Positions 15,299-61,354 of a stretch of 64,000 bases of DNA are shown here, piece after piece. Within the stretch, counting starts at the first letter, position 1. Each line of letters begins with the position of its first letter. The translations under genes and the position numbers were made by a program. The stretch comes from Antarcticibacterium flavum (GTDB lineage: Bacteria > Bacteroidota > Bacteroidia > Flavobacteriales > Flavobacteriaceae). A model generated the notes under the pieces. That model saw only the letters and a list, made by a program, of their open reading frames with translations. It was not told the DNA's origin and ran no database searches. Location: positions 682,001 through 746,000 of the forward strand of contig NZ_CP040812.1 in assembly GCF_006159205.1 (NCBI RefSeq), read 5' to 3'.

Positions 15299-15521
15299 CA
15301 TTGTTGTCCGGTAAAAGAGTCTCGACCGCTTCCGCTGCTAGAATAAAAAACCCAGACTAAAATCTATATCATTGTAAATCATATATTTAACCAATTCTAA
15401 AAAGTCTGGATTTTATTAAACTATTTAAGATTCAAAACCACCCCATGTGGGTTTATAAAACTTCGGACAATATATAGCAAGGCTTATCGCAAATTCACAC
15501 TATTTTAATCGGACACCAATG
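15299..15521. mobile_element. MITE-like element, copy a (overlaps the MFS gene end)
   Basis: A 223-bp non-coding element with left end CATTGTTGTCCGGTAAAAG and right end ...GGACACCAATG, whose reverse complement is CATTGGTGTCC. It is flanked by near-identical 9-mers, attctgctg and atcctgctg. The internal sequence (gaccgcttccgctgctagaat and other blocks) is shared with the other copies. The right terminal repeat encodes the last five residues and stop of the minus-strand MFS transporter. Confidence 0.85.
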
Positions 15522-16785
15522 ATCCTGCTGTAGCCATTTGAGGATCCCGCTGTTCTTTTTGAATTTTCCTCACATCCTTTTTCAGAAATAAAGATATGAT
15601 CAAAGCGATTGCAATGAGTACAATAAAAACATAGAATACGGGAACATAGCTTCCTGTAAAGGCGTAGATCTGTGAAACCAGCGTTGGACCAATGAGCCCG
15701 CCCAGGGACCAGGTTGTAAGAAGATAGCCGTGGATCGCCCCAAGTTCCCGGGTTCCAAAAAGATCGGCTATAAAGGCAGGTAGATTTGAGAATCCGCCGC
15801 CATAACAGCTCACCACAAGAAAGATGAGCACCTGGAAAATAATAGCGCTGGAAATAATAGGCAAGGTGATAAAGGCTACCAGTTGTATCACAAAAAATAT
15901 AATATACACCACCGGCCTTGAAAGATAATCTGATGCTGCTGCCCAGCCAATCCTTCCTGCGCCGTTAAAGATCCCCATAAGCCCAACCATCACCGCTGCA
16001 CTCGCAGCAGTTAGTCCGCCAATGGTTTGTGCCATAGGGGAGGCGACCGAGATCATCATTATACCTGCGCTCGTATTGATCAACATAATTGTCCACAACA
16101 TCCAGAAGTGCTTTGTTACCACTGCCTTTTTAGCTGTGAGCGAGGACAAATCCTGTAGCACTCTCCTGGTGCTTATACGGGCTTTTTCCTTCATCCCGAC
16201 AGGGAGCCACCCTTTAGGTGGAGGTGCAATATACCAGGCCCCAAGGGACATAAGCAGGAAATAACTACCGCCGAGAATATAGAAAGTAGTGCTTATTCCC
16301 ACAGATTCCATAAGCGAAGCGGCAAGTGGAGCCGTGATCAAGGCACCCGCACCAAATCCAAGAACTGCCATCCCCGTAGCAAGCCCGCGACGGTCCGGAA
16401 ACCATTTTACCAAAGTGGAAACCGGTGCGATGTATCCTATCCCTAAACCTATCCCGCTTAAAAGACCATAAGAAAGAATGAACATCACCAAGGAGTCCAA
16501 AGCTACTGCCACTCCAGATCCTGCCTGCCCAAGGCCGAACAGCACCGCAGCTATCATAGCCGATTTTGTAGGGCCGCTTCGTTCTACAAATCTCCCAAAC
16601 ACAGCAGCCGATGCCCCACCAAGGGTCATCATAACTGTAAATGCTATAGTAACTGAGGAGATCGTCCATCCCAAATTTTCTGCAAGGGGAATAGTATATA
16701 CACTATAAGCATATGCTGCCCCAATAGAGAGATGTATGCATATAGCAGATAAAGCGATCAACCACCTGTTCTTTTGAAGTCTCAT
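15505..16785 (-). CDS. OFA-type major facilitator transporter
   Basis: A 426-residue inner-membrane protein with 12 predicted helices. The N terminus (NRWLIALSAICIHLSIGAAYAYSVYTIPL) and the motif between helices 2 and 3 match the oxalate/formate antiporter (OFA) family of the MFS, whose members exchange small carboxylates. The cytoplasmic loop after helix 6 contains PPPKGWLPVG, also usual for the family. The substrate is not predictable here. The last residues, SLVSD and the stop, are encoded by the terminal repeat of MITE copy a, so the native C terminus has been replaced; the change lies in the cytoplasmic tail and is probably harmless. Confidence 0.88.
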   Translation of the reverse strand: MRLQKNRWLIALSAICIHLSIGAAYAYSVYTIPLAENLGWTISSVTIAFTVMMTLGGASAAVFGRFVERSGPTKSAMIAAVLFGLGQAGSGVAVALDSLVMFILSYGLLSGIGLGIGYIAPVSTLVKWFPDRRGLATGMAVLGFGAGALITAPLAASLMESVGISTTFYILGGSYFLLMSLGAWYIAPPPKGWLPVGMKEKARISTRRVLQDLSSLTAKKAVVTKHFWMLWTIMLINTSAGIMMISVASPMAQTIGGLTAASAAVMVGLMGIFNGAGRIGWAAASDYLSRPVVYIIFFVIQLVAFITLPIISSAIIFQVLIFLVVSCYGGGFSNLPAFIADLFGTRELGAIHGYLLTTWSLGGLIGPTLVSQIYAFTGSYVPVFYVFIVLIAIALIISLFLKKDVRKIQKEQRDPQMATAGSLVSD

Positions 16786-17007
16786 AAACTCTGGAAATTA
16801 AAGTTCGATATAAAGGCTGCTATGGAATAGTCAATAACCAATTATTTTCTTAAAAATCCTAAAATTATTATTTACATAAGATAATTAAATCGCGGCTGCT
16901 TGAGTTCTCCTGTCTTTACAATTTCTTCAACTATAAAGATCAGGGTGCTGGTCTTTGAGCAGTGGCAGCCACCGCTTGCTTCTTCGGGATTATGAAAATT
17001 TGCATAC

Positions 17008-17041
17008 AAAAAAGTCCCGATACAGGAAGTATCAGGACTTT
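17008..17041 (-). terminator. Intrinsic terminator of the MBL-rhodanese gene
   Basis: Stem AAAGTCCCGATAC / GTATCAGGACTTT with one mismatch. Read on the minus strand it ends in a T run and lies about 20 bases beyond the stop of the 17064-18479 gene. Confidence 0.8.
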
Positions 17042-17063
17042 ACAATTAATACAGTTATAAAAT

Positions 17064-18479
17064 TTAGGAAAGGGCTATTTTGAAATCCTTTTCCGTTTCA
17101 GGAGAATTTAACCTATTCCATTCTTCCATCCCGCCGGGATATACTTTTACATTCTTAAACCCATTGCGGGCGAGGATCGATTCAGCTATAGCAGCCCGGG
17201 CACCACTCTGGCAATGGATCACTATTTCTTTTTCTGCGTCAATCTTATCGAGATTATCGGGCAAGGTCCCAACGAAAATATTTTCCACCCCCTGGATATG
17301 ACCTTCTGTGTATTCAGATACGCCCCGTACATCTATAACCTGTACATTATCTTTTCCCAGGTAAGACTTAAATTCTTCGATTGAGAGGTTCTCTGTTTTT
17401 TCAAGTGCAATGTTTAAAACTTCGACTTTCTCGATATATCCCATAATATTATCCAGGCCTATTCTCATCAATTTCCTGGTAAGGTCCTCCATTTGCTCCT
17501 CCCCGGCCACAAGTATAAATTGCTCTTCATAGTTAAGGAACCACCCTGCCCATGTAGAGAAGGAATTATTTCCCTGTATATGAATACTATTTGGAATATG
17601 ACCATTCGCAAATTCTTGCTTATCCCGGGCATCTATGATCTTAATACCTTTATCGTAAGCTTCCTTAAATTCTTTTTCTGAAAGTTTCTTATGTTTAGGT
17701 ACTTCGGTAAGCAGTGGACGCTCCTCCTTGTTCAGCTTTTTCATCATTGCGAAGTATTTGGGAGGTTCAGGCTGGCCTTCCAGCAGGTAATCTATAAAGC
17801 CCTTTTTATTATCTTCATACTGGAATGCCCAGTTTCGAATTTTTTCGTAGCCAACAGTTGTGCTTGGTACGGCTCCAAGAGCTTTCCCGCAGGCAGATCC
17901 TGCCCCGTGACCCGGCCATACCTGCAGGTGCGCAGGAAGTTCACTAAATTTTTTGAGAGATCTATACATATCCTCTGCCCCCTTATCCTGTGTACCTTTT
18001 AATCCGGCAGCTTTTTCCAGCAGGTCGGGTCTGCCAATATCCCCAACAAAAACAAAATCCCCGGTAAATAGCATTACCGGTTCCCGGCTTGCAGGATTAT
18101 CTGTTAATAGGAAGGAGATACTCTCTGGTGTATGACCGGGAGTATGCATCACATCCAGGGTAAGATTCCCTACCTGGATGCTGTCACCATCCTTCAATCC
18201 AATGTGGTCAAACTGGTAGCTCCAATCTGGCCCGCCTTCGTCTGAAAGATACATTTTTGCTCCCGTCACCGCATTTAATTCCCTGGTTCCTGCCAGAAAA
18301 TCGGCATGAATATGTGTCTCAGTTACGTGAGTGATTCGCAGGTTATTCTGTTGTGCGATCTCCAGATATGTATCTATATCGCGTTTAGCATCGATGACGA
18401 TGGCCTCCCCTGTCTTTTGACAGCCAATTACATAACTTGCCTGGGCAAGCGATTTGTCATAAACGTGTTGAAAAAACAT
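17064..18479 (-). CDS. Metallo-beta-lactamase fold / double rhodanese protein (persulfide dioxygenase-like)
   Basis: A cytoplasmic fusion of an ETHE1-like MBL domain (residues 1-250) and two rhodanese domains. The metal site is visible as THIHAD (H56, H58, D60), HTPGHT and the GDFVF aspartate. The family oxidises glutathione-type persulfides and moves sulfane sulfur. The first rhodanese (about 265-350) has no cysteine at its active loop (ILVAGEEQ), so it is likely structural; the second (about 370-465) has HCQSGARA with C423 and should be active. A likely role is detoxification or oxidation of sulfide-derived persulfides. A palindromic motif 74 bases upstream is shared with the YeeE genes at 62.5-63.5 kb, which supports a sulfur role. 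Confidence 0.87.
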   Translation of the reverse strand: MFFQHVYDKSLAQASYVIGCQKTGEAIVIDAKRDIDTYLEIAQQNNLRITHVTETHIHADFLAGTRELNAVTGAKMYLSDEGGPDWSYQFDHIGLKDGDSIQVGNLTLDVMHTPGHTPESISFLLTDNPASREPVMLFTGDFVFVGDIGRPDLLEKAAGLKGTQDKGAEDMYRSLKKFSELPAHLQVWPGHGAGSACGKALGAVPSTTVGYEKIRNWAFQYEDNKKGFIDYLLEGQPEPPKYFAMMKKLNKEERPLLTEVPKHKKLSEKEFKEAYDKGIKIIDARDKQEFANGHIPNSIHIQGNNSFSTWAGWFLNYEEQFILVAGEEQMEDLTRKLMRIGLDNIMGYIEKVEVLNIALEKTENLSIEEFKSYLGKDNVQVIDVRGVSEYTEGHIQGVENIFVGTLPDNLDKIDAEKEIVIHCQSGARAAIAESILARNGFKNVKVYPGGMEEWNRLNSPETEKDFKIALS

Positions 18480-18551
18480 AATTTTTATATATTAAATGAA
18501 TATTCTATTTAAAATTCTGAAGCAAAAATACTCTTTGTATTACTGCTTCAC

Positions 18552-18568
18552 AGTAACATTAGTTACAG
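18552..18568. promoter_or_regulatory. Candidate operator GTAAC-N4-GTTAC (sulfur regulon)
   Basis: Inverted repeat inside cAGTAACATTAGTTACAg, about 74 bases upstream of the MBL-rhodanese start. An almost identical copy (one base different over 17) lies upstream of the YeeE gene at 63501-63517. The symmetry and spacing suit a Crp/Fnr-type dimer, but the binding protein is inference. Confidence 0.6.
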
Positions 18569-18824
18569 TGGAAACAACCACCTTCCATCTGCTCATTATT
18601 TAATTTATAAAGGAAATCACAGCAGGGGTTAGAATATCTATTTCCCATTCTACCTATCCAGGATTACACAATGTTACCTATCGTGCTAAACTCTCAAAGA
18701 TATTCCAGGTACGTAGTATTGCGATTTTGTTTGTATATTAAATACAGAAAGAGATTTATTCAGGAAAAATAATCTGCAGCTACAAAGCTTGATGATTTTG
18801 GTTTTCTCTTAATGTTTTTAGCAA

Positions 18825-18837
18825 ATGTTATTAACAT
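18825..18837. promoter_or_regulatory. Palindrome ATGTTA-T-TAACAT upstream of the dioxygenase gene
   Basis: Perfect 6-1-6 inverted repeat about 117 bases upstream of the MhqO-like start, in an otherwise featureless 474-bp intergenic region. It could be an operator; no regulator gene is adjacent to support this. Confidence 0.3.
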
Positions 18838-18953
18838 AGGTCAACATTTTTCCGGCTTTTGATGCCGATCTTTGAGGTACAAAGACAGGTAAATAAATGA
18901 AAAGTCCAGTCTGTGGCTATTAGTTAAAAAAGAAGCATTCAAAATTTTAGATT

Positions 18954-19889
18954 ATGGAAAAGAAAATAAAAGGTTTACATCACATTACTGCAATTGCAGG
19001 AGATCCCCAGCGCAATTATGATTTTTATACCAAAACTCTAGGTTTAAGGATGGTAAAAAAAACGGTGAACTTCGACGATCCTAAGACATATCACTTTTAT
19101 TTCGGGGATGAAGTGGGAACCCCGGGAAGTATTCTTACATTTTTCCCCTGGCCCGGAGCCAGGCAGGGACAGGATGGTGCCGGGATGGCTACCGAGATTG
19201 GCTACTCTGTACCCAAAGGAAGCCTTGAGTTCTGGAAAGACAGGTTTGAAGAAAAGAACGTACGGCATTTCCAGATCAAGGAGCAATTTGGGGAGAGAAA
19301 ACTGCTTTTCCTGGATCCCGATGGTCTAAAATTAAGCCTCATTGAAACCACCAATGACGACAGGCAGGGATTTAAAAGCAACGAGGTGAAAGCAGATGCC
19401 GCTATCAAAGGGTTTCATTCTGTTACCCTTACACTTAATTTTGCTGAAGAAACCGCAGCGGTATTAACCGATATTTTCGGCTATGAAAAGCTCTCCGAAG
19501 AAGGAAGCTTTCACCGTTATAAAACTGATGCAACGGAGAATGCCGCAATAGTAGATCTTTTTATTCTGCCAGATGCATACAGGGGCATCAATGCAGCCGG
19601 CACCAATCATCATGTAGCTTTTAGGGTGAAGGATGAAGAAGATTTGATGCAAATGCGGGAAAAAGTGCTGGCAAAAGGTTTACATATTACAGAAAAAATA
19701 GACAGGGATTATTTCTATTCCCTGTATTTCCGGGAACCGGGCGGCGTCCTCTTTGAGATCGCGACAGATAATCCCGGCTTTGCCACAGATGAAACAGTAG
19801 ATGAACTTGGCTCCTCCCTCCAATTACCCGCAAGGTACAGAGGAGCAAGAGAGCAAATTGAAAAGGCACTGCCGGAGTTGAGGGAATAG
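18954..19889 (+). CDS. Ring-cleaving dioxygenase, MhqO-like, two VOC domains
   Basis: A 311-residue protein of two vicinal-oxygen-chelate modules (about 5-140 and 150-290). Likely metal ligands are the His of GLHHITAI, the His of GFHSVTLT and the Glu of GVLFEIAT. It matches the MhqO/LinE-like glyoxalase group that opens hydroquinone-type rings. In Bacillus the partner MhqD carboxylesterase is co-regulated with MhqO, and here an MhqD-like hydrolase is the next gene, 400 bases downstream. A role in detoxifying quinones or other electrophiles is therefore plausible. The downstream intergenic DNA carries heptamer repeats. Confidence 0.85.
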   Translation: MEKKIKGLHHITAIAGDPQRNYDFYTKTLGLRMVKKTVNFDDPKTYHFYFGDEVGTPGSILTFFPWPGARQGQDGAGMATEIGYSVPKGSLEFWKDRFEEKNVRHFQIKEQFGERKLLFLDPDGLKLSLIETTNDDRQGFKSNEVKADAAIKGFHSVTLTLNFAEETAAVLTDIFGYEKLSEEGSFHRYKTDATENAAIVDLFILPDAYRGINAAGTNHHVAFRVKDEEDLMQMREKVLAKGLHITEKIDRDYFYSLYFREPGGVLFEIATDNPGFATDETVDELGSSLQLPARYRGAREQIEKALPELRE

Positions 19890-19892
19890 CTC

Positions 19893-20283
19893 TGTTGTTT
19901 GGTGTTTGGTGTTTGGGGTTAATTAGTTAGGGTGGATTCGTTAGTTCGTGAGGCGTTGATTCGTTAGTTCGGAATTCTTTAAATGGAAAAACTGGGTAAT
20001 TGGTAATTGAAAATTGCATATACATTCTTTTAGCTAGTTAGCGGGGGATTTGCGATTTGAGCTACGATAAACGTGCTCCGTCAATCTGTTCCCGCTACGG
20101 ACTAACGACTAACGACCAACGACTACTTTTTGAAACTTCTTTTTAAACTCCTTTAAAAACTCCGTGGTTAAATAAAAATTAGTCTCTAAAAAAGCACCAA
20201 TAATCAGGCAAGCTCAAACTCATAACCATACCCCATAACTCTTAACTCTTAACTCTTAACCCTAATCCATAACTCATAACTCA
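19893..20283 (+). repeat. Intergenic region with several short heptamer arrays
   Basis: Between the dioxygenase and esterase genes. It contains tttggtg repeats (19896-19918), a 'gattcgttagttcg' unit twice (about 19935-19975), cgactaa/cgaccaa heptamers (20099-20126), ttaactc heptamers (20234-20262) and ataactc heptamers (20267-20282). The last array abuts the esterase start. No ORF of coding character is seen. Confidence 0.7.
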
Positions 20284-20290
20284 AAAAAAA

Positions 20291-20905: not shown

Positions 20906-20935
20906 TGGAGAATTTTTAATCACCTTATCGCGCTC

Positions 20936-20958
20936 AAGATACTGTTTTTGAGTATCTT
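20936..20958. promoter_or_regulatory. Perfect inverted repeat AAGATACT-N7-AGTATCTT
   Basis: Eight-base arms with a 7-nt spacer, between the esterase stop (20905) and the DUF5996 start (20980). No T run follows, so it is a poor terminator; it could be an operator or an RNA hairpin near the start of the next gene. Confidence 0.35.
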
Positions 20959-20979
20959 ATTAGTTCAAAAATTGAAAAT

Positions 20980-21879: not shown

Positions 21880-22032
21880 CTCATATGAGAATGTTTAAAA
21901 TAGCAAGATTTATACAAATAAAAAGCAAATGTAAGATATTCCAGGAAAAGGACACTAAACCAGGAAAATCCGGGCAAAAGAGAAAAACCATTTTCATAAG
22001 AATGGAATAATACATAAAATAAAAGGAATCTT

Positions 22033-22947: not shown

Positions 22948-22999
22948 AAAGCAGGGAATCACAAATCGCTAAAATCTTAACCGGCAATTCAGTTAAATC

Positions 23000-26161: not shown

Positions 26162-26163
26162 TT

Positions 26164-32813: not shown

Positions 32814-33090
32814 GAGACAAGAGACAAGAGACAAGAGACAAGAACCAAGAACCAAGTACAAAGAGAGAAGAGAGAAGAGAGAAGAGAGAAGAGAGAAGAG
32901 AGAAGAGAGAAGAGAAATTTAGAATCCCTGGAAATTATAACAGACATAACCAACCACAACATTCCATGAGTTTGGTTATACGTTTGTTTAAAATGGGTTG
33001 ACTATCCTCTTCCCACTTTTCTCTTTCCTCTTTTTTTAACATACAACCTACAACCTATAACTTTTTTCCACCGACAACCTACAACTTTTT
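32814..33090 (-). repeat. Composite repeat A, copy 2 (inverted relative to copy 1)
   Basis: Reads on the minus strand like 1694-1966. On the plus strand the order is gagacaa/gaaccaa heptamers (32814-32856), gagagaa heptamers (32861-32915), the unique core (about 32916-33010), then acaacct heptamers (33041-33060 and 33073-33088). The core aligns to that of copy 1 with scattered differences, while array lengths and some unit sequences differ. No coding potential is seen. Confidence 0.8.
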
Positions 33091-36088: not shown

Positions 36089-36312
36089 CATTATTGTCCG
36101 GCTAAAGAGTCTGGACCGCTTCCGCTGCTAGAATATAGAACCTGGACAAAAATTTACTTCGTGGAAAACAGCGCTTTGCTCACTTCAAAAAAAGTGGATT
36201 TTCCTAAACTATTTTAGATTCAAAACCACCCCCCTGTTGAGGTTGAAATGACCTCAGACTATACATAGCAAGGCTAAACGGAAATTCAGATTATATTAAT
36301 CGGACACCAATG
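36089..36312. mobile_element. MITE-like element, copy b (exact 10-bp target duplication)
   Basis: A 224-bp element from CATTATTGTCCGG to GGACACCAATG. The flanking decamer ataggtaatt is repeated exactly at 36079-36088 and 36313-36322, proving insertion by transposition. The interior matches the other copies (ctggaccgcttccgctgctagaata). Confidence 0.9.
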
Positions 36313-37502: not shown

Positions 37503-37615
37503 CATTCTTGTCCGGTGGAAGAGTCCGGACCGCTTCAGCTGCCAGAATCTAGAACCCGGACTTTTGATTGGCCAGAAAAACAGACCATCAACCTTATTTT
37601 AAGCGGACACCCATG
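37503..37615. mobile_element. Short MITE-like element, copy c
   Basis: A 113-bp version with both ends (CATTCTTGTCCGG ... GGACACCCATG) and the left internal block, but lacking most of the right interior. Flanks attttaaaa and attttaaat form a near-perfect 9-bp duplication, so the short form transposed as such or lost its centre later. Confidence 0.8.
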
Positions 37616-37795: not shown

Positions 37796-38019
37796 CATTG
37801 CTGTCCGGTTAAAGAGACTAGACCGCTTTCGCTGATAGAATAGAATCTAGACTAAAATCTACTTCAATGGAAAACAGCACTTTACCCATACCTAAATAGC
37901 GTGGATTTCATAAATCTATTTTAGATTCCAAACCGGCCCCATTTCGAGGTTGACATGACCTTAGACTATACATAAAAGGACTAAACGTATATTCACATTA
38001 TATTAATTGGACATCAATG
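37796..38019. mobile_element. MITE-like element, copy d
   Basis: A 224-bp element from CATTGCTGTCCGG to GGACATCAATG, with flanking decamers aatcactatt and atttactatt (8 of 10 identical). It ends 16 bases downstream of the VIT-family gene's stop codon. Confidence 0.85.
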
Positions 38020-40365: not shown

Positions 40366-40570
40366 TAATGTTGTAAGGTAAAAGTGTCTTGATCACTTTC
40401 GCTGCTGGAATCCAGTGCTTGGATTAAAATTTCAACGCATGGGAAATATCATTTTTGATCTTCAGGATTTCTGGAAATTTCTTAATCTATCTTTTACTCC
40501 ATTGGCGAGATTGATAGGCCCTCTAACCATATAAAGAAAGACCTTAGGCAATTTAAATATTTCAAAAGGA
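40366..40570. mobile_element. Decayed MITE-like copy i upstream of the decarboxylase
   Basis: Aligns along its length to the other copies with many differences: left end attaatgttgtaaggtaaaag, then cactttcgctgctggaatcc and a right part with gcgagattgataggccc. No target duplication remains. It lies about 30 bases upstream of the decarboxylase start, so it forms part of that gene's leader or promoter. Confidence 0.55.
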
Positions 40571-40758
40571 TAATAAAAAGGAGGCGTTTATATTTTATCC
40601 AATTGCATAGTGCGGAAGGCAGGATTTTAAACAAGTTCTGAAGAAATCTATAAGATTCTGTCTTTTGGAGTTAAAATATTCCCAAGAGTGAAACAATATT
40701 AAACTCTTTACGTCTTATTAATAAAGAGCGATGTTGTTTGGAACAAAAACCTGAAATC

Positions 40759-42013: not shown

Positions 42014-42175
42014 CATAGCTGTCCGGTTAAAGAGTCTGGACGGCTTCCGCTGCTAGAATATAGAACCCGGACTAAAATTTACATCAATGGAAAACAGCGC
42101 TTTACCCAATTATAAAAAGCCTGTATTTTCCGAACCTATTTTAGATTCAAAACCTCCCCATGTTGACGTTGACAC
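42014..42175. mobile_element. MITE-like element, copy e, right end missing
   Basis: Matches the other copies from CATAGCTGTCCGG through ccccatgttgacgttgaca, then homology stops; about 50 bp including the right terminal repeat is absent. It lies 70 bases upstream of the disrupted phzF gene. Confidence 0.75.
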
Positions 42176-42244
42176 CCTGTTCTTAAAAATGATCATTATA
42201 TATAAAAACAAAGATTGGTAAAGCAGTATCTTTAAAAAAAAATC

Positions 42245-43036
42245 ATGCAGCTACACCTATACCAGATCGATGCTTTTACTGAAACTATATTTGAGGGCAA
42301 CCCAGCCTGTGTTGTGCCGCTAAGCGAGTGGTTACCAGATGATCTCTTGCTCAGGATTGCTCGTGAGAATGCTGTGGCTGAAACCGCCTTCTTTGTGAAC
42401 CAGGGATTTAACTACCACCTGCGTTAATTCACGCCTGAAATGGAAATGGACCTTTGCGGACATGCTACTCTTGCGGCAGCACACGCTATAAAGGAGATTC
42501 GAAAACATCAAGGCAACAAGATACTTTTTGAAACCAATAGCGGAGACCTGGAGGTACTCGTAGAAAATGGAGTCTATACTCTCAATTTTCCTATCAGAAC
42601 ACCGGAACCAGCTGAAATGCCTGAACTGCTAAAAAATTCCCTGAACATCCAACCACTGGAAGTTTTAAAAGCCCGTGATTTTGTTTTGGTATATGACAAA
42701 GAAGAGGATGTAAAAAATATAGATATTAACCGGCTTCATTTTGACAAGCTGGAGTTGGGAACAGGCGGGGTCATAGTTACTGCACCTGGAAAGGAGGTAG
42801 ATTTTGTTTCCCGCTTCTTTACACCAGGGGCCTCTGTATTTGAAGATCCTGTCACAGGTTCTGCCCACTGTTCACTAATTCCCTACTGGAGCAGCAAATT
42901 AAATAAGACTCATCTCAATGCCCGCCAAATCTCCCCCAGAGGCGGCAGCCTGGGGTGCAAATTACTAGGTGACCGTGTAGCAATTAGCGGCCATGCCCGT
43001 ACTTATTCTATTGGGAAGCTTTTTACTGAAGATTAG
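42245..43036 (+). pseudogene. PhzF-family isomerase/epimerase, interrupted by an in-frame TAA
   Basis: PhzF-like protein (diaminopimelate epimerase-like fold) of about 263 codons. MQLHLYQIDAFTE..FEGNPACVVPL opens it, and DLCGHATLAAAHA and FEDPVTGSAHCSL are conserved family blocks. After NYHLR the codon that should encode the Trp of the usual (L)RWFTP motif is TAA (42425-42427); the frame then continues intact to 43036. Changing TGG to TAA needs two substitutions. The product is likely non-functional unless the stop is read through or translation restarts at ATG 42440, which would lose the N-terminal catalytic part. It is flanked by a truncated MITE and a long heptamer array. Confidence 0.8.
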
Positions 43037-43045
43037 TCGTCAGAC

Positions 43046-43227
43046 GTTAGACGTTAGACGTTAGACGTTAGTCGTTAGTCGTTAGTCGTTAGACGTTAGA
43101 CGTTAGACGTTAGTCGTTAGTCGTTAGACGTTAGACGTTAGACGTTAGTCGTTAGTCGTTAGACGTTAGACGTTAGACGTTAGTCGTTAGTCGTTAGTCG
43201 TTAGACGTTAGACGTTAGACGTTAGAC
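43046..43227 (+). repeat. 26-copy heptamer array gttagac/gttagtc
   Basis: Exactly 26 uninterrupted heptamers of two types, A (gttagac) and T (gttagtc), in the order AAATTTAAATTAAATTAAATTTAAAA. A higher-order repeat of about 35-42 bp (A3T2 or A3T3) is visible. It starts ten bases after the phzF stop codon; the intervening bases are themselves degenerate units. Confidence 0.9.
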
Positions 43228-43374
43228 GAAAATAAAATATCCCTATATGCACGAATGTTTTTCTATTTCCTTCAGCTAAATTCTGTGATCCTGCTTTATA
43301 TTGGTCTAGTCTCTAGACTCCAGATTCACTGGCGTCCGGTAAACCAAATTAAATCCTACCTTAATACCATGGAA

Positions 43375-43410
43375 AAAGGGAGTCCTCGTTTTCGACCACA
43401 GACTCCCTTT
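43375..43410 (+). other. Perfect hairpin in the IS leader
   Basis: AAAGGGAGTC / GACTCCCTTT (43375-43384 with 43401-43410), 25 bases before the transposase start. Such leader hairpins in IS elements commonly block transcription or translation entering from outside; that role here is inference. Confidence 0.6.
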
Positions 43411-43435
43411 AAAGGTTCCACTTAAAGCGGACATT

Positions 43436-44659
43436 ATGGACAAAATTACAAGAAATTCTGGAATGCCGGTTCTCGGACAGCTGTTATCTTTTATTCCCCG
43501 AAGCAATTTTAACCGTTTAGTTGGCCAATTAGGTACAGATCGCTATACCAAACGATTTACATCCTGGGATCACCTGGTCTGTATGTTGTTTGCGGTTATT
43601 GAGAATGTTGGCGGATTACGTGAGTTATGCTCTGGTTTAGCAGCACATAATCAAAGTTTAAAACATTTAGGAATGAGTTCTATGCCATGCAGAAGCACCG
43701 TGAGTGATGCTAATATGCGCCGGTGTTCTGAGTTGTTTGAAAAAACCTTTATAAGCATATATAAGCAGCACTATCGTTTTTTCTCGGACAGCAGTATACC
43801 TAAAAATGAAAAATGGCTCTCCAGGCTGTTTTTGGTTGACTCTACCACTGTTACGTTATTCAAGAATATAATGAAGGCCTGTGGTAATGCTATGGCTAAC
43901 GGGAGGCGTAAGGGAGGAGTTAAAATACATACTGGAATGTGGCTAAAAGAACAAGTTCCTTCTTTAATAATGATTACTAAAGCAGCGGAAAATGATAAAA
44001 ATTTTATGCCCCGATTTAAAAAACTTCCTGCACAGACCATTGTAGTTTTTGATAAGGCATACTTAAATTTTGGTTTATTTATTCATTGGAGTAAAAACGA
44101 TGTCAGTTTTGTAAGCCGACTGCACAAAAGATGCAAAGTAACTTGGGGGAATTATAACCTCTTAACTAAGGAGGATGAGCAATATGGCATATTGGAAGAC
44201 TGTAGAGCAGAATTAGGGCATAGCCAGCAAAAACAAAAAGTAAAATGCCGCATTATAAAGTTTTATGATCACAAAGATCAACGGGAAATTGAATTTATTA
44301 CCAATGATATGCAGCTGCCTGCTTGCACAATTGCAGAAATATACAAGCAGCGATGGCAAATTGAGCTTTTATTTAAAAGGCTCAAGCAAAACCTTAAGAT
44401 CACCAGCTTTATTGGCGATAATGAGAATGCAATACGAATTCAAATCTGGTGTGCACTTATAGCGGATTTACTGGTCCAAATAGCTCGAAAAGGGTCTCGA
44501 CGTTGCAGATTATCTTATTCGGTGATTTGCGGGCTATTTAGACTTCATTTAATGAATTATGTGAGAGTTACAGACTTACTTTTAAAATCAGCAGATCCTA
44601 ACATTTATCCTAAAAATATACAGCTTGCACCTAACCTTTTTGACATAGGACCCCCATAG
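43436..44659 (+). CDS. IS4-family transposase with DUF4372-type N terminus
   Basis: A 407-residue DDE transposase. The N-terminal part (GQLLSFIPRSNFNRLV...RFTSWDHLVCMLF) is the DUF4372-type domain seen in Bacteroidota IS4 elements. Catalytic residues are D135 (LVDST), D206 (VFDKAY) and E310 within the IS4 signature YxxRxxxExxxxxxK (YKQRWQIELLFKRLK). Full-length, uninterrupted and flanked by intact ends, so it is probably active and could in principle act on the related MITE ends. Confidence 0.95.
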   Translation: MDKITRNSGMPVLGQLLSFIPRSNFNRLVGQLGTDRYTKRFTSWDHLVCMLFAVIENVGGLRELCSGLAAHNQSLKHLGMSSMPCRSTVSDANMRRCSELFEKTFISIYKQHYRFFSDSSIPKNEKWLSRLFLVDSTTVTLFKNIMKACGNAMANGRRKGGVKIHTGMWLKEQVPSLIMITKAAENDKNFMPRFKKLPAQTIVVFDKAYLNFGLFIHWSKNDVSFVSRLHKRCKVTWGNYNLLTKEDEQYGILEDCRAELGHSQQKQKVKCRIIKFYDHKDQREIEFITNDMQLPACTIAEIYKQRWQIELLFKRLKQNLKITSFIGDNENAIRIQIWCALIADLLVQIARKGSRRCRLSYSVICGLFRLHLMNYVRVTDLLLKSADPNIYPKNIQLAPNLFDIGPP

Positions 44660-44899
44660 ATTGAAAATAAAAATCGAAGTGAGGTAGAATCAAGGTTTAT
44701 TAAGATTAAAACAAGAAATACTATTTTTACCGGACGCCAGTGACTCCAGATTCTAGACTCTTTTTTTCTCTTCTCTCTTTTCTCTTTTCTTGTTTCTTGG
44801 TTCTTGTTTCTTGATTCTCTTTAACTAGCACTTCTCTTTTTTAAACCTCTGCTCATTCTTTTTCAGTAAATTAGTAGATACTATTTAAATCTAAACTAT

Positions 44900-46285: not shown

Positions 46286-46527
46286 TCGTTAGTCGTTAGT
46301 CGTTAGTAAAATTTGGTGTTTGGAGTTTGGGGGTTGGTGTTTGGTGTTTGGTGTTTGGTGTTTGATGTTTGATGTTTTGTGTTTTGGTGTTTGGTGTTTG
46401 GTGTTTGTAGCTGAAGGTTTCAATTTAAAAATTTTTGACTACTCTTAATTCGAAATCTATATTCTAACATCTCATGTCTAATATCTCATGTCTAATATCT
46501 CATGTCTAATATCTCATGTCTAATATC
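46283..46527 (+). repeat. Cluster of three different heptamer-type arrays
   Basis: tagtcgt units start on the amidohydrolase stop codon (46283-46306). Then come ggtgttt units with variants (46314-46410), then a 14-bp unit tctcatgtctaata four times (about 46470-46525), which is two alternating heptamers. The next gene starts 19 bases later. Confidence 0.85.
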
Positions 46528-49644: not shown

Positions 49645-49870
49645 CATTATTGTCCGGTAAAAGAGTCTGGACCGCTTCCGCTGCTAGAATATAGAACCTG
49701 GACTAAAATCAATTTCGTTGTAAATCGGATATTTTACCCAATTCTAAAAAACCTGGATTTTCTAAAACTATTTTAAATTCAAAACCACCCCAAATGGAGG
49801 TTGATAAGGCCATGGACTATATGTAGCAAGGCTTAACGTAAATTCACATCATTTTAATCGGACACCAATG
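49645..49870. mobile_element. MITE-like element, copy f (exact 10-bp target duplication)
   Basis: A 226-bp element CATTATTGTCCGG ... GGACACCAATG flanked by the exact decamer atacaggaat (49635-49644 and 49871-49880). It is one of the best-preserved copies and useful as a reference sequence. Confidence 0.9.
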
Positions 49871-53933: not shown

Positions 53934-53936
53934 ATT

Positions 53937-54163
53937 CATTGTTGCCTGGTAAAAGAGTCAGGACCGCTTTCACTGCTAGAATCTGGAACCTGGACTTTAC
54001 CTTATAGTGGTCTGAAAAAAAGACCACTAACCTTTTTTGGAAAAATTGAAAAATTCAAAAACAATTTAAACCCAAAACCACGTCCTGGGCCAGTTGGATA
54101 CATGCACTGCCTGCATATAGGAAGGCGTAAAGAAAGTTTTATCAGGTTTATTCGGACTACAAA
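53937..54163. mobile_element. MITE-like element, copy g
   Basis: A 227-bp diverged copy with left end CATTGTTGCCTGGTAAAAG and right end ...TTCGGACTACAAA. The flanks atattaaatt and gtaataaatt match in 8 of 10. The left flank includes the stop codon of the preceding small gene. Confidence 0.75.
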
Positions 54164-54219
54164 GTAATAAATTTCAGGATTTAAGATTTTTACCGGAATT
54201 TTTAATTTGCTGTCTTTAA

Positions 54220-55604: not shown

Positions 55605-56427
55605 ATTCGTAATTTTTTACCTTTTGGTCTTTTCTTCCTTCAAAGTGATCCATTGTATGATAGACTCCCAAAACTTTACCCACAAACCAGTCAAAGAACC
55701 AAATGGGAAACAACCCCTGGAAAAACCTAACAAACCTCATACTCCAGGGCATACTTATAATTATCCTGTCTTTTTCAATACCCTTTATAATCTTATTGGC
55801 AACTTTTTCCTGGTCCAGAACAGGAATTATAGATCTTACCCCGGCAAACATACCTGTGTTTATATAAAATGGAGTAACTGTAGATACATTTACATTTTTG
55901 CCCAGCTGTTTCATTTCCAATCTTAAGCTGTCTGACCATCCCAGGAGCGCCCATTTGCTTGCTGCATATACAGACATTCGCGGATTGGAAAGAAAACCTG
56001 CTGAAGAAGCTATATTACAAATGTGGGCAGCTTCCCTTTTCATCATATCCTCCAAAAATATAGAAGTAATATGCATAGGGGCAGTAGCATTAATATCCAT
56101 TGTGCTGTCTATCTCTGCGGTTGAATGTTCATTAAAAAACTTTCCTACAATGATCCCTGCGTTATTGATGAGCACATCAATTCCTCCATAAGTTTCCTTT
56201 ACCAACCCGGCATTTTTTCTCACTTCGTCGATCTTTGAAACATCGACGGGATAGGATATAACTTCTCCAAGGGTTTCCAGCTCCATACGAGTATTTTCCA
56301 AATTCTCCCTGTCTATATCCCAAATAATTAGCCTGGCCCCTTTTTCCAGTACAAGTTTACCCATAGATTTACCTATCCCCGAACCACCGCCGGTGATCAA
56401 TACTGTTTTTCCCTTAAATTTAGTCAT
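55543..56427 (-). CDS. Short-chain dehydrogenase/reductase
   Basis: A 294-residue classical SDR: TGGGSGIG cofactor motif, NNAG, catalytic Ser in ASSAGF, and YAASK (YxxxK). A helix-rich C terminus with MRFVRFFQGLFPIWFFDWF suggests membrane association, as in retinol- or fatty-alcohol-type SDRs. The open frame overlaps the aldehyde dehydrogenase by 62 bases; adding one A in the GGAAGAAAAG run would instead end it at 55601 with an ATGA overlap. It lies upstream of the dehydrogenase and probably supplies its aldehyde substrate (inference). Confidence 0.87.
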   Translation of the reverse strand: MTKFKGKTVLITGGGSGIGKSMGKLVLEKGARLIIWDIDRENLENTRMELETLGEVISYPVDVSKIDEVRKNAGLVKETYGGIDVLINNAGIIVGKFFNEHSTAEIDSTMDINATAPMHITSIFLEDMMKREAAHICNIASSAGFLSNPRMSVYAASKWALLGWSDSLRLEMKQLGKNVNVSTVTPFYINTGMFAGVRSIIPVLDQEKVANKIIKGIEKDRIIISMPWSMRFVRFFQGLFPIWFFDWFVGKVLGVYHTMDHFEGRKDQKVKNYEYERNQPGEGPAGSQGSKRIF

Positions 56428-56696
56428 TAGAGCATTTATGATTGGCCTCCCTAAAAGTATGAAAGTATGTGCTGCCGGTCAAGAAATATAAGGTATTATA
56501 CCTTTTACAACAAAACTGGCCCAGGAATGATCCCAATAGATACATTGAGAAAAGAGGAGATATCTTAAACTCTCACCGTCAACAGAAAAAGTTTTCATAC
56601 TTCTTCACGCTTGTTTACAAAAAAGAATAAAATCACAAAAGTCTATATGCGTTAACAATTAGTTAAAAACTAGTAATCCTTTAACTCTTCATTAAA

Positions 56697-56704
56697 TATC
56701 TTTG
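56697..56704 (+). promoter_or_regulatory. Possible Bacteroidota -7 element TATCTTTG
   Basis: Exact match to TAnnTTTG, ending 7 bases before the ATG at 56712. No clear -33 TTTG is present. If real, transcription would start at or near the ATG, favouring a leaderless message or the second ATG at 56733. Confidence 0.35.
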
Positions 56705-56711
56705 CAAGGCT

Positions 56712-56900
56712 ATGAATTGGAGAAATGAACCTATGGAAAGAATTGAGAATTTATTTACCTGGAATAAACTGTACAAAAATGCAATCACTATTTTTTTAGC
56801 GATTGTATTCAGTTTTTTTATTGCGTTTCTGGTCTGGCTTGAAACCGAGATGTCTCTTATCTCCTCAATCTACAGTTCTTTGCTGAAAAACAGGGGATGA
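56712..56900 (+). CDS. Small membrane protein (62 aa)
   Basis: MNWRNEPMERIENLFTWNKLYKNA followed by one hydrophobic helix (about residues 25-43) and a short polar tail. An alternative start is M8 (56733). It is followed by a perfect terminator, which supports a real transcript. No family recognised. Confidence 0.55.
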   Translation: MNWRNEPMERIENLFTWNKLYKNAITIFLAIVFSFFIAFLVWLETEMSLISSIYSSLLKNRG

Positions 56901-56939
56901 TTTGACCCATTATTATAAATGTTGGACTAATCTTATTTC

Positions 56940-56963
56940 AACCGGTACAACCGGTTTTTTTTG
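56940..56963 (+). terminator. Intrinsic terminator after the 62-aa gene
   Basis: Perfect 7-bp stem AACCGGT / ACCGGTT with a 3-nt loop and eight T. Confidence 0.8.
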
Positions 56964-57347
56964 ATTGGGTGCCTCCTCAAAGTACCCTCCATTTTGGAGG
57001 CACTCTTTTAAATGTTGCGCAGTATCTTTTTTTATCGGTAAAAAAATTCTGATACTTTTCTGGACTCTTTTATACCTTAAGCCACAGGACAATGTAAATT
57101 CTCTTATGGGATGGATGAAAATTTCCACGAAAAGAAAAAAAAAGAAAGTATCCTGTAACAATCTGCCGCCTCGCTATACATATAGTAGTCGTCATTTCTC
57201 ATAGGACGACAGCCTGCATTGTGAGAAGATGTTTTAACATCGGCAATCAGGAATAAAAGCCCTTTTGGGCATTACAACAGGTCCTTAAACTGTTGGGGTT
57301 AATAAGGATCTAAATCGAATGGACGGGTGGGGCCGTCCATTTGCTTT
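56964..57347. other. Intergenic region, no gene seen
   Basis: About 380 bases without convincing coding sequence. A short inverted repeat gtcgtc / gacgac lies near 57188-57207. Nothing else stands out. Confidence 0.35.
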
Positions 57348-57692
57348 TCATGCAATCGCCTCAGCATCTGGCCCGGGAAAGTAATCACTTAGCATATCGG
57401 TTTGCCAGCGAATGGTCCTGGCATCAAGATCTGGCTCTACATTAAAAGTTGCCGGGCGCTGTTTTTTAAGTGCTTTTATACTACTAAAGAATGCTTTATT
57501 AAAATCGTTGGCCATCACCGGGGAACACCATTTTTGCCTTGTAAGATGAAGGGGCCATTTCCATACTTTTCCTTCTGTTGTATCTTCAGTTTCCCAAAGT
57601 TGCTCTTTACTAATTTTAATCTCAGGCAAATTCAAAGGTCTGCCTGTGAGGCCCTGATCTTCATTGAATTCCCATATTCCGTACTTCTTCAT
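57348..57692 (-). CDS. Hypothetical protein (114 aa)
   Basis: A 114-residue soluble protein beginning MKKYGIWEFNEDQGLTGRPLNLPEIKISKEQLWETED, rich in Trp (six) and charged residues. It has no signal, helix or known motif, and I do not recognise a family. Its composition looks coding and it starts about 150 bases downstream of the K+-channel gene on the same strand. Confidence 0.55.
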   Translation of the reverse strand: MKKYGIWEFNEDQGLTGRPLNLPEIKISKEQLWETEDTTEGKVWKWPLHLTRQKWCSPVMANDFNKAFFSSIKALKKQRPATFNVEPDLDARTIRWQTDMLSDYFPGPDAEAIA

Positions 57693-57847
57693 TACTTTAG
57701 GGTTTTGAGGGTTAAAGAATTAAATTTAAGAATAAGCTTCTCCCATACCCTTAAATCTTTCCTATTTTTTTCTATACAATATGTGAAAATATAAAGTATA
57801 ATAATCTAAAAATGAATATCTTAACCACCCAAACATTTTTTCTGCCT

Positions 57848-58837
57848 CTATGTCCTGGTCTCAAAGGGATCCCGGCCTTCCATAACGTCTCTCCATTCGA
57901 AACCCTCATTTTGTAATAAGCCTCCAAGGATCTCCCTTCTTTTTGCCAGTTCATTTTCATTTATAGCGGTGACTTCATACGATAAAGCTTTTTTGGCGTC
58001 TCCGGCCTGTCCCTTAGGTAGGGACCGGGAATAATTTTGATTGACATGATAAATAAAATGAGTGACCGCAGCGCGTAAAGGCTGTAATTCTATTGTAAGG
58101 TTATCTTTTGGTGTCGAGAAAAGAATATTGAGTGCTTCATCCAGTCTTACTAAATTTAATCCCAGGCATACATCCTGCCTTTTATGGCTAAAAAAATGCA
58201 CCACTGGATAAGCCTGGTGATTAACTGCATGCCGGTCTACCATTTCCTGAAAGGATTGTAGTTGTTGTATGCTATAAGAGCTATCCAGGGAATTCAATTT
58301 ATCTGCAATTTCCTGCGGATCTTTTCCAAGATTTTGAATGCTTCTGGACAGTGTTCTTTTATTGATCACTGCAGAAGAAACTGAAATGAGATAAGTCATT
58401 GAGCTAGTGAAAAAGATGAATCCGAAGAATGAGAAAATGCTGGTTATGATCTCAAAAAAGGCTGTTGTTGTTTTAAAATTTCCCACACCAAGTGTAGATA
58501 AAGTATACCCGGTATAATAAAGGCGCTCTATCCAGTTGGCAACTCTTCCCGTATCATTGGTCATGCCGTCCGGATCGAAGGAAAATACAAGAAAAAGGCC
58601 TAACCACACCAAGAAAATCCATACTGCCAATACACTAAGGTTCACAAGAAGACCACTAATATTAAATATGCCTCTGCCGGTGGGGCCTTTTAATTTCCTA
58701 ATAACAGCATGGGTGGAAAATGCAACAGCCCTGGTAATGAAACCGGCACCACTAGCTGAAAGGGTGGTTAGAAAGAAATCATATATTCCCAGGAGCAGTA
58801 ATAGAGAGCCGATTATTAGATAAATAGTTTCTGTCAT
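57848..58837 (-). CDS. Potassium-channel-like membrane protein
   Basis: A 329-residue protein with an N-terminal helix, a second pair of helices, and a pore loop reading YTGYTLSTLGVGNF, where the two-helix channel family has TxGYGD; the final helix IFSFFGFIFFTSSMTYLISV follows. About 140 residues of cytoplasmic C-terminal helices follow, without an RCK domain. It belongs to the ion-channel (Ion_trans_2) superfamily, but the VGN filter may change its ion selectivity. Confidence 0.8.
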   Translation of the reverse strand: MTETIYLIIGSLLLLLGIYDFFLTTLSASGAGFITRAVAFSTHAVIRKLKGPTGRGIFNISGLLVNLSVLAVWIFLVWLGLFLVFSFDPDGMTNDTGRVANWIERLYYTGYTLSTLGVGNFKTTTAFFEIITSIFSFFGFIFFTSSMTYLISVSSAVINKRTLSRSIQNLGKDPQEIADKLNSLDSSYSIQQLQSFQEMVDRHAVNHQAYPVVHFFSHKRQDVCLGLNLVRLDEALNILFSTPKDNLTIELQPLRAAVTHFIYHVNQNYSRSLPKGQAGDAKKALSYEVTAINENELAKRREILGGLLQNEGFEWRDVMEGRDPFETRT

Positions 58838-59588
58838 TTAGTTTCTTATATCAATGATTTCGAGGATTATCTAATTTAATTCATCTAAGACAGCATTTAT
58901 TTAAAATTGTGCTAAACTTCCTTTCTTCAATTGTTTCCATTGCACTTTATTCCATTTGTGGGATGCTTTTAACAATATTAAAATTGTCTCCTAATTTTAT
59001 AAGTAATCATATTAGATGGAACCTTGAGATTTAAATTTTCTCCTGGCAGTAGAAATCTTTTATAACCCTATCCCCTTTTATTCTCAAGATTTTACTCTAT
59101 TATAAAAATTTATTAAAGCTGATAAATGTCAACAAAACTTTAATGTCAAATCCTTATTTTCGTCAACCCAAAGCAGGTATAAAAGATTGATTGCCGGTAG
59201 TGTGGAATTTTTAATTTTTTCAGAATATAATTCCTTAATAGAAGCTTCGGCGGTATAATTATTGAAGAGTATTATATGATCCTTCAATAGATTCAGTTTT
59301 TTAAATTGGCCTTTTTCCGGCAGGTACCCCTAACCTGCAGGATATAAATTGAATAGATTTTTAGTTTTTACTTTTTTCTCTACCCCCACAATTAGAGCAC
59401 GTTACCCCACATTATTGATAGCCTGATTTATGTCCTTGTGCTTCCTGCTGAAGAAAAAGATCAGCAACTAAGAAGTATACGTGCAAATAAAGGAACAGGG
59501 TTTACCCCCAGGTGCTTAATGTGCCTTATCATATTTATGAATGAAGAATGATCTAAATGAATGATAATCTAAATTAAGATAGAACAGA
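58838..59588. other. Divergent intergenic region, no gene seen
   Basis: 750 AT-rich bases between the divergent K+-channel and glycogen synthase genes. No ORF of coding character, no heptamer array and no MITE. Promoters for both genes must lie here. Confidence 0.5.
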
Positions 59589-61130
59589 ATGAACAACTTT
59601 CTTTTTGTAGCTTCAGAAAATGATGCGATCCATAACTGTAAGGTGGGTGGTGTAGGTGATGTGATTAGGGACGTACCCAGGGAAATTTCCCGAAAGGGAG
59701 ACAGGGTTCACGTTGTTGTTCCCTCCTATTCCCGGTTGCACCAGGGTGGTAAATTGATCACAAACCTCAACTTCAGGCTTCGGGATGTAACTTATGTGGC
59801 TTATTTATATGAGGTAGAGCCCAAAGAGAAAGATGAAAATATTTTTCACTACGTGATACATCATCCCGAAATTGAGTCGGGAGACATTGGAAATGTCTAT
59901 CACAATGACCTTACTGAACCATTTTTTACAGATACCATCAAGTATTTTATCTTTTGTACGGCGGTGGCTCAGGCAATTAAACAAAATGTGTTCGGGAAGA
60001 TCAACATCATGCATTTGCACGACTGGCATACCAGCCTCTTGCTATTCCTAAGAAAATTTCATCCTAAATATGAGATGATGCAGGGGATAAGAACTGTGTA
60101 TTGTATTCATAACCTTGCAATCCAGGGAATAAGGCCTTTTGAAAATAGCCATTCCTCTTTACAAACCTGGTTCCCAAACCTGGAGATACCCCGGGAAGAA
60201 TTAGTGGATCCACGTTATGCCGACTGTTTTAACCTTATGGCAATAGGAATACGCTTTGCAGATGTGGTACATACCGTCTCCCCTTCTTATAAGGAGGATG
60301 TACTTTTACCTAGTGAACCGCCAGAATTTATTGGGGGCGAGGGGCTGGAGCAGGATCTTATAGAGGCAGACAGGCAAGGACGATTCTATGGCATACTTAA
60401 TGGCAGTGAATATCCTGCAGCCAAGAAAACGGGGAACAGAACCTTATTTAAGAATATTTACAATACTATTTTTGACCAGGTACAAAAGGAGACTGTAAAA
60501 CATAAAATCGATTTTCTTGCACATACAGGACAAAAGATCTTACCGTATCTTAAAAAACGGCCGGGATTCATTTGTGCCAGCGTAGCCCGTCTTACCGAGC
60601 AAAAATTCTATTTCTTTAAACGATCGCCAGAGGCTCTTTTAAAGATCCTGGATAAACTTGCAACTGTAAATGGCGTGTACGTGCTTCTGGGAACCGGCGC
60701 TCCGGAATATGAACACCTATTAAGAAAAATAAGTCATCAACGCGCTAACTTTATCTTTATTAATGCTCAAAGTGAGGATGTGATAGAATCGATCTACCGG
60801 GAATCTGACCTTTATTTTATGCCAAGCTTATTTGAGCCCTGCGGCATAAGCCAAATGCTTGCCATGCGTAATGGACAGCCCTGCCTTGTGCATCACACCG
60901 GTGGGCTTAAGGACACAGTGAGGCACGTTCACACAGGCTTTAGTTTTGATGGCAGGACCTATGAGGAAAAAGTCCAGAATATGGTTGCCAGCTTTGAAGA
61001 GGCGCTGGATATTTACCAAAATGAAAAGGAAACCTGGAAAAAGATAAGGAAGAACGCCCGTAAAATGAGATTTACCTGGAAAAAATCTGTAGACGAATAT
61101 TATAAGCTACTTTATAAGTGGACCTCATAA
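59589..61130 (+). CDS. glgA: Glycogen/starch synthase (GT5 family)
   Basis: A 513-residue GT-B glucosyltransferase that adds glucose from a nucleotide sugar to alpha-1,4-glucan. The substrate-binding motif is KVGGVGDV (KTGGLxDV in relatives), HDWHT and the C-terminal SLFEPCGISQMLAMRNGQPCLVHHTGGL are GT5 hallmarks. GlgB and GlgC genes are not adjacent. The native stop TAA lies inside the 10-bp target duplication of MITE copy h, and the gene's likely terminator is now 255 bases away beyond it. Confidence 0.9.
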   Translation: MNNFLFVASENDAIHNCKVGGVGDVIRDVPREISRKGDRVHVVVPSYSRLHQGGKLITNLNFRLRDVTYVAYLYEVEPKEKDENIFHYVIHHPEIESGDIGNVYHNDLTEPFFTDTIKYFIFCTAVAQAIKQNVFGKINIMHLHDWHTSLLLFLRKFHPKYEMMQGIRTVYCIHNLAIQGIRPFENSHSSLQTWFPNLEIPREELVDPRYADCFNLMAIGIRFADVVHTVSPSYKEDVLLPSEPPEFIGGEGLEQDLIEADRQGRFYGILNGSEYPAAKKTGNRTLFKNIYNTIFDQVQKETVKHKIDFLAHTGQKILPYLKKRPGFICASVARLTEQKFYFFKRSPEALLKILDKLATVNGVYVLLGTGAPEYEHLLRKISHQRANFIFINAQSEDVIESIYRESDLYFMPSLFEPCGISQMLAMRNGQPCLVHHTGGLKDTVRHVHTGFSFDGRTYEEKVQNMVASFEEALDIYQNEKETWKKIRKNARKMRFTWKKSVDEYYKLLYKWTS

Positions 61131-61131
61131 T

Positions 61132-61354
61132 CACTACTGTCCGATAAAAGAGTCTGGACCGCTTCGTGCTGGAATCTGGAATCCAGACTAAAATGTAAGT
61201 TTTTGGAAAAGAACCGTTTACCAACTTTTAAAAAGCTTATATTTTCCTGAACTATTTCGAGTCCAAAACCGCCCTGGTTGAGATGGGTATGTCTTCTGAC
61301 CGGGTATAATAAAGCTTAAGGAAAAATATTGAATATTTTATGCGGTCACCAATG
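61132..61354. mobile_element. MITE-like element, copy h, inserted at the glgA stop
   Basis: A 223-bp element from CACTACTGTCCG to GGTCACCAATG, with flanking decamers acctcataat and acctcatact (9 of 10). The left flank contains the last codons and the TAA of the glycogen synthase gene. An internal 8-bp perfect stem AGTCTGGA / TCCAGACT is intact here. Confidence 0.88.

Follow-up and report, generated by a model that had tools for sequence, protein, structure and literature searches.

The 64,000-nucleotide stretch of the Antarcticibacterium flavum genome analyzed here (the window; contig NZ_CP040812.1, positions 682,001 to 746,000, forward strand; G000:C1:682001-746000 in our numbering, G000 being the host genome, a single contig of 4,353,683 bases) carries dispersed copies of a gene-less miniature inverted-repeat transposable element (MITE) of approximately 225 bp. 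These repeats are a family that has really transposed, in several waves, and that is very probably moved in trans by IS4-family DDE transposases, most likely with an insertion sequence (IS) clade ending in CATTAGTGTCCGAT as the chief partner. A first-pass annotation had read the repeats as a MITE family, a reading borne out by the ends of the copies, by their target site duplications (TSDs) and by a nested insertion. Furthermore, the family is not private to the host genome, and diverged copies are found over several Flavobacteriaceae genera.

All nine places in the window named by that annotation contain related non-coding DNA with the ends it described; the copies, together with a tenth, weak match, are the following.

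15299-15521, forward strand: MITE copy a, 223 bp, two-ended, 9-bp TSD (8/9 positions alike)
36089-36312, forward strand: MITE copy b, 224 bp, two-ended, exact 10-bp TSD ATAGGTAATT
37503-37615, forward strand: MITE copy c, 113 bp, middle deleted and both ends kept, 9-bp TSD (8/9, by eye)
37796-38019, forward strand: MITE copy d, 224 bp, two-ended, flanks alike at 8/10
40367-40574, forward strand: decayed MITE copy, 70% identical to the family consensus
42015-42208, forward strand: MITE copy e, right end lost
49645-49870, forward strand: MITE copy f, 226 bp, exact 10-bp TSD ATACAGGAAT, used as query when the genome was first searched
49658-49706, forward strand: conserved left block within copy f, built of seven-base NNRGANN units with GCTTCCGCTG in between
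53937-54164, forward strand: MITE copy g, diverged (71%), two-ended, 9-bp TSD (8/9)
61132-61354, forward strand: MITE copy h, 223 bp, two-ended, 10-bp TSD (9/10)
3748-3914, reverse strand: possible decayed MITE fragment, model positions 33-201, 46.9 bits, 64% identity

The exact 10-bp duplications that the annotation gave for copies b and f stand; of those it called near-exact, that of copy h does at 9/10 and those of a, c and g do in a 9-bp register, while that of copy d is weaker. Copy h starts directly after the stop codon of an open reading frame (ORF) at 59589-61130.

A genome-wide count of copies, proposed in the first-pass annotation, gave at least 115 matches in the host genome with a profile built from 32 copies by sequence only (cutoff E ≤ 1e-3; 150 of 2549 candidates were scored, so that counts are lower bounds), and copy f as a BLAST query gave 41 (40 of 105 candidates scored). 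Flanks were analyzed for 78 of the best 79 of these 115 matches, with the nested piece at 4173631 read separately and the match at 4173975 also read. Both ends are present in 66 of the 78, or in 65 once 4343724 (reverse strand), which falls in a contig overlap with 24634 (reverse strand), is dropped as redundant. This overlap is probably that of an untrimmed circular assembly: contig positions ~1-34,640 and 4,319,058-4,353,683 appear to share ~34.6 kb, with small differences at the two edges and one inner place compared. Median length among the two-ended copies is 225 bp, and 58 of the 65 fall within 220-228 bp; they are bounded by terminal inverted repeats (TIRs) CATTGTTGTCCGG / CGGACACCAATG, a pattern with 93 matches in the host genome (IS ends included) vs. 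4 for its reversed form. Coding capacity is absent: the longest complete internal ORF has a median of 26 amino acids (aa) and a maximum of 46 aa over the 65 copies, and the MITE encodes no transposase, hence no YREK motif of its own.

With the ends fixed at CATT/AATG, a TSD with at most one mismatch flanks 27 of the 65 two-ended copies, compared to 0.99% of 4160 mismatched flank pairs judged by near-identical criteria, and perfect TSDs are found in 13/65 compared to 0.24%. The 10-bp length that the first-pass annotation had emphasized applies to 10 of these 27 clear cases; the duplication is 9 bp in the other 17, and mostly 9 bp in related genera. At G000:4173631-4174084 a full copy lies within an older copy, between the words ACTTAAAAT and ACGTGAAAT; unbroken copies of a similar subfamily (L025 and L027) carry a single ACTTGAAAT, from which each of the two words differs by 1 base, a 9-base duplication. 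Moreover, the target word AATTCCRRGCACCAAAT occurs 54 times genome-wide at ≤1 mismatch (reversed control, 0). Among 21 related target stretches (≤2 mismatches, in fetched DNA), 6 run directly into a MITE left end (882437, 979901, 1228610, 1355882, 1592465, and 3319910), while 11 lie more than 40 bp from any of the 78 inspected copies and are paralogous empty sites, e.g., 978935 and 1356018. Within the host genome, empty sites, which the annotation had suggested comparing in relatives, thus speak for insertion, with the duplicated word present once in the paralogous empty sites and in the nested case. When a 20-kb query was run against 16 Gillisia genomes, the long matches outside the host genome were 65-76% identical, and none of those listed spanned an insertion.

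The annotation had also considered that the copies might be tandem or segmental duplicates with shared flanks. Flanks proved largely unrelated: the 300-bp flanks of 66 copies gave 28 pairs at E ≤ 1e-4, of which 2 reflect the contig overlap, 2 are neighbors 233 bp apart, and the other 24 are only 20-89 bp long. A tree of 58 of the 65 two-ended copies (7 poorly scoring copies were omitted) resolves several subfamilies, with terminal branches from 0.010 to 0.276, which fits the repeated waves of movement that the annotation had proposed.

With ORFs defined by length only, none of the 65 copies lies inside an ORF of ≥100 aa and 6 overlap an ORF edge (for 3/65 a neighbor is missing); the ORFs on either side are convergent for 25 copies, divergent for 9 and co-directional for 28, with 3 left unassigned. 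Gene 3′ ends are within 60 bp in 37/80 cases, vs. 11/47 for 5′ ends, and copies between co-directional genes are in the opposite orientation in 18 cases and in the same orientation in 10 (hand count). To account for this landing pattern it is enough that genes and promoters are avoided; no dedicated targeting mechanism is needed.

The window holds an IS of the family to which we assign the partner transposases.

43327-44742, forward strand: resident IS, IS4 family, 1416 bp, ends CACTGGCGTCCGG, exact 10-bp TSD ACTCCAGATT, located in a period-7 stretch
43436-44659, forward strand: transposase of the resident IS, 407 aa, DUF4372 and DDE_Tnp_1 domains, NF033592 (IS4 family), YREK motif IYKQRWQIELLFKRLK (by eye)

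Its 10-bp duplication, already noted in the first-pass annotation, is exact, as it is for all nine copies of this IS in the host genome (1415-1416 bp, protein identity 98-100%). A second IS clade, with ends CATTAGTGTCCGAT and a DUF4372 transposase of the IS4 family, is found in relatives. Two IS copies of G. limnaea have the ends CATTAGTGTCCGATAAAA...TAGTCGGACACTAATG and 9-bp TSDs. Three copies of the G. limnaea type (L213, L214, and L331) show 9-bp TSDs by eye; the intact G. limnaea transposase is 38% identical to the resident one, and both match NF033592 (IS4 family) and have YREK. The CATTAGTGTCCGAT clade is intact in two MITE-bearing genomes, G001 and G122 (78% identity, nearly the same ends), and damaged relatives with such ends are present in three others (G043, G219, and G092, the last with one short piece), all MITE-bearing. 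Also in G219, remnants of ~650 and 730 bp of the candidate partner IS keep both ends and are intermediate deletion derivatives (L337 and L345).

An IS4-family partner, as the annotation had suspected, is supported by the ends, by the duplication length and by this clade in MITE-bearing relatives. The right end of the MITE agrees at 19/21 positions with the G. limnaea IS right end and at 17/21 with that of the resident IS; for the left end the figures are 15/18 and 14/18. The annotation had proposed a search for a full-length IS with CATTG-type ends, and an IS with CATT ends does exist in relatives, its right end slightly closer to the MITE than the resident's. In addition, CATTGTTGT, CACTGGCGT, and CATTAGTGT fit the end pattern CA------T tabulated for subgroup IS4Sa, and the duplications fall within its 8-10 bp direct repeats (PMC2266710, Table 1). 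In the model we favor, the MITE ends CATTGTTGTCCGG...CGGACACCAATG would be used in trans by IS4-family DDE transposases, fitting IS4Sa in ends and duplication length, and insertion would occur in intergenic DNA, mostly downstream of genes, and produce target duplications of 9 or 10 bp. Most likely the CATTAGTGTCCGAT clade would be the main partner, intact in G. limnaea, and resident-type ISs may have moved copies with 10-bp duplications.

Several observations weigh against this assignment. A DUF4372 search of the host genome found the nine resident IS copies only, none with exact MITE-type ends. The right end of the resident IS matches the MITE left end at 15/18, equal to the G. limnaea IS left end, so that the ends alone do not decide between partners. 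Similarity between MITE and IS is restricted to ~20 bp and therefore does not establish descent of the MITE from a G. limnaea-type IS. With the G. limnaea-type transposase as query against 13 MITE-bearing genomes, no relative was found in G006, G190, and G061 and very weak matches in G047 and G041, while G158, G040, G042, and G149 had distant relatives alone (27-37% identity), with different IS ends where these were read (ACTAGTGATGCG in G040 and CAGTAGCATCCG in G158); six of these nine genomes without a close partner transposase are drafts or lack quality figures. Finally, an ORF bounded by such ends was absent from the nine TIR-bearing stretches inspected in Galbibacter and Aquimarina (these ORFs were not compared with families).

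A refinement of this model, which we hold tentatively, is that two IS4 transposases moved the family in the host genome, a resident-type one leaving 10-bp and a G. limnaea-type one 9-bp duplications. Target words speak for it: the ten 10-bp MITE copies favor A at position 1 (9/10), Y at 3 (8/10), A at 8 (8/10), and T at 10 (9/10), and the nine resident IS copies, all with 10 bp, favor A at 1 (8/9), Y at 3 (9/9), A at 8 (9/9), and T at 10 (6/9, with C in 2/9). The form A-N-Y-N4-A-N-T is thus common to both (each position at least 8/10 in the MITE and at least 6/9 in the IS), whereas the 17 9-bp MITE copies differ, having R at 1 (16/17) and Y at 4 (17/17), and the three G. limnaea-type IS copies have 9-bp duplications. 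Moreover, duplication length tracks base 5 of the MITE end, which is A in 8 and G in 1 of the 10-bp copies and G in 13 and A in 3 of the 9-bp copies (Fisher p = 0.002, one C and one T omitted). Numbers are small, and the p-value is optimistic given the relatedness of copies of one subfamily. We do not go beyond a tentative position because base 5 is reversed in the supposed partners, being G in the resident IS and A in the G. limnaea IS, and so breaks the rule seen in the MITE.

The most conserved part of the element is its left block, in which seven-base units NNRGANN, two before and three after, surround a nine- or ten-base GCTKCGCTG; other, shorter conserved words are TAACTAATTGA and AGCAAGG, and the rest of the element outside the block is almost randomized between genera. 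This block may take part in transposition or may serve the host. A more doubtful proposal than that of two transposases is that, once inserted (at gene 3′ ends, for instance), it serves the host or its chromosome, with the MITE as the means by which it spreads. Block-like matches without TIRs start at profile positions 14-18 in many genera, several of them without a full element among the matches listed, and many copies lie close to gene 3′ ends. The block also evolves slowly: along the terminal branches of the 58-copy tree of the host genome, the ratio of change in the block to that in the rest is 0.66 (95% confidence interval 0.51-0.85). For the 24 copies whose ends are broken this ratio is 0.60 (0.44-0.78), and for the remaining 34 it is 0.75 (0.54-0.99). 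TIRs and the rest change equally on these branches (0.088 each), and the lag of the block holds whichever of the four bases is ancestral. Slower change in the block hints at constraint after insertion, though part of the difference could come from ascertainment and alignment: the models used to find copies gave most weight to the block, and a misaligned variable part inflates its own rate. Gene conversion may be an alternative source of slower block change, the 3′ bias is accounted for by promoter avoidance, and there is neither a conserved RNA fold nor an Rfam match (in the window, at gathering scores). A structured RNA repeat was tried as a candidate and rejected: alignments of 32 and of 20 copies yielded no consensus fold, the predictions comprising 4 pairs (-1.14 kcal/mol) and 2 pairs (-0.78 kcal/mol), respectively.

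As a separate observation, a module CGCTN{2,3}GCTGCNAGANNNNAGANNNNRGACT without transposon ends is present in many Bacteroidota (L151, L154, L086, L079, and others), with repeated arrays in Aequorivita. A record titled as a Candidatus Cloacimonadota metagenome-assembled genome (MAG) also contains the block motif (L099), which may be a binning error or chance.

Outside the host, a pattern search with the left block gave 124 hits in at least 120 loci of named genomes, 56 with the left end, 55 with the right end, and 46 with both. When 80 of 120 of these loci were searched with the host-genome profile, full-length elements came up in Salegentibacter echinorum, Aquimarina sp. U1-2, Gelidibacter salicanalis, Galbibacter orientalis, Subsaximicrobium, and MAGs. 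A second profile, built from 20 elements of these groups (E ≤ 1e-5; its stricter filters lose weak matches), has matches in 34 of 199 family genomes (198 genera), many of them to the left block alone. TSDs accompany copies of G. hiemivivida, Salegentibacter, Aquimarina, Gelidibacter, Galbibacter, and G. limnaea, mostly with 9 bp, and among 20 copies of 203-239 bp from 8 genomes outside the host, 18 have a TSD with ≤1 mismatch, small offsets being tolerated (null 37/380). No match was found in viral contigs (one exact pattern), plasmids (copy f as query), or phages (a Salegentibacter copy as query).

Element length is held near 223 bp in many groups, though not all. Median lengths are 222-225 bp in G047, G158, G092, Salegentibacter, Aquimarina, and Galbibacter (copies counted), and 33 of 52 two-ended matches outside the host genome, among those listed, fall within 220-228 bp. 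Distances between paired ends, taken without a profile, have a mode of 223 in Galbibacter (9/23 pairs at the mode, 15/23 within 220-226) and of 225 in Aquimarina (5/7 pairs). Shorter and more ragged groups weigh against a strict length, namely G190 (180-214 bp, 0/5 within 220-228) and G219 (173-223 bp, 1/5). Eleven representatives are 0.48-0.65 identical overall, apart from the closest pair (0.78); outside that pair, the left 75 columns are 0.61-0.88 identical and the remainder 0.34-0.53. We think it unlikely that all of this is one very old MITE lineage kept across Flavobacteriaceae by selection on ends, left block and, in active subfamilies, a length of ~223 bp, with the other two thirds drifting almost freely. 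Under that proposal the left block would be the same module as the TIR-less intergenic one of many Bacteroidota, and the element would spread a chromosomal module with a function after insertion.

At L117:2443-3040 of Galbibacter orientalis, three elements stand head to tail at intervals of 232 bp, and a word resembling a target lies between them. That triplet and some close neighbors are what can be said for an ancient host repeat, no transposon at all, multiplied by segmental or tandem duplication, an explanation contradicted by the TSDs, the nested insertion and the largely unrelated flanks, and one that we regard as extremely improbable.

A preference for period-7 arrays as targets was also considered and reduced to a weak, possibly genome-specific tendency. 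The mean period-7 signal at targets is raised (Mann-Whitney p = 2.5e-4 for 65 MITE sites and 0.0015 for 9 IS sites); at a threshold of 0.5, MITE sites give 12/65 vs. 20/178 spaced control windows (Fisher p = 0.11), and IS sites 5/9 vs. 10.1% of 8872 overlapping control windows. Targets in G. hiemivivida have a plain AT-rich look, by eye. Intergenic DNA of the window is itself rich in period-7 tandem arrays with differing units, such as 28 units of TTAGACG, and 22 of 33 rows from Tandem Repeats Finder (TRF) have period 7 or 14; examples are 43033-43228, 32814-32915, 46312-46407, 1696-1772, and 20213-20283, and short matches to such stretches also occur in congeners. A further tandem repeat in the window, at 4480-5674, has a 369-bp unit in 3.2 copies and lies inside a 648-aa ORF (4092-6038).

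The usual picture of a prokaryotic MITE is that it arises by deletion from one IS, in one lineage, and does not last long. New in the present family are its depth across genera, a conserved asymmetric block in common with TIR-less modules, and a length near 223 bp in many subfamilies. We found no paper, among the matches listed for open-access PMC articles, that describes an IS4-ended MITE from Flavobacteriaceae or the left-block modules. A MITE spread over many genera with one fixed block, with usable candidate partners in living relatives and with a module that is widespread without it, makes testable how long a MITE lineage can persist beyond its partners, whether IS4 transposition is limited by the distance between the ends, and what role the period-7 modules of Bacteroidota have.

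The heptamer repeats treated in PMC4679880, partly in Bacteroidetes, are different ones (TAACTGA). The systems closest to ours differ from it in distinct ways. IS4Sa, as characterized in the cited table (PMC2266710), resembles the present system in its CA------T ends, its duplications of 8-10 bp and the YREK of the candidate partner transposases; the MITE, however, has no transposase and only ~20 terminal bases in common, and the ISs are placed there by end pattern and duplication length, not by a transposase tree. BrickBuilt of Porphyromonas gingivalis is likewise a Bacteroidota MITE with internal tandem repeats, but its description gives IS5-like ends, 23-nt repeats of variable number, 19 copies, and unequal-length duplications in 3 of 4 testable copies (PMC4596501). 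MITECca01 of Cardinium is similar in size and number (~240 bp, 169 copies in one Bacteroidota genome), whereas it is IS982-derived and reported as unique to one strain (PMC9769881). MITEAba12 of Moraxellaceae is also non-coding, makes 9-bp duplications, has IS identity limited to its ends and occurs in several species of one family; that element is 113 bp long with ISAba12-like ends, and 10% of its 90 copies diverge from one consensus (PMC6382973), whereas representatives of different groups of the present MITE are 0.48-0.65 identical, apart from one closer pair.

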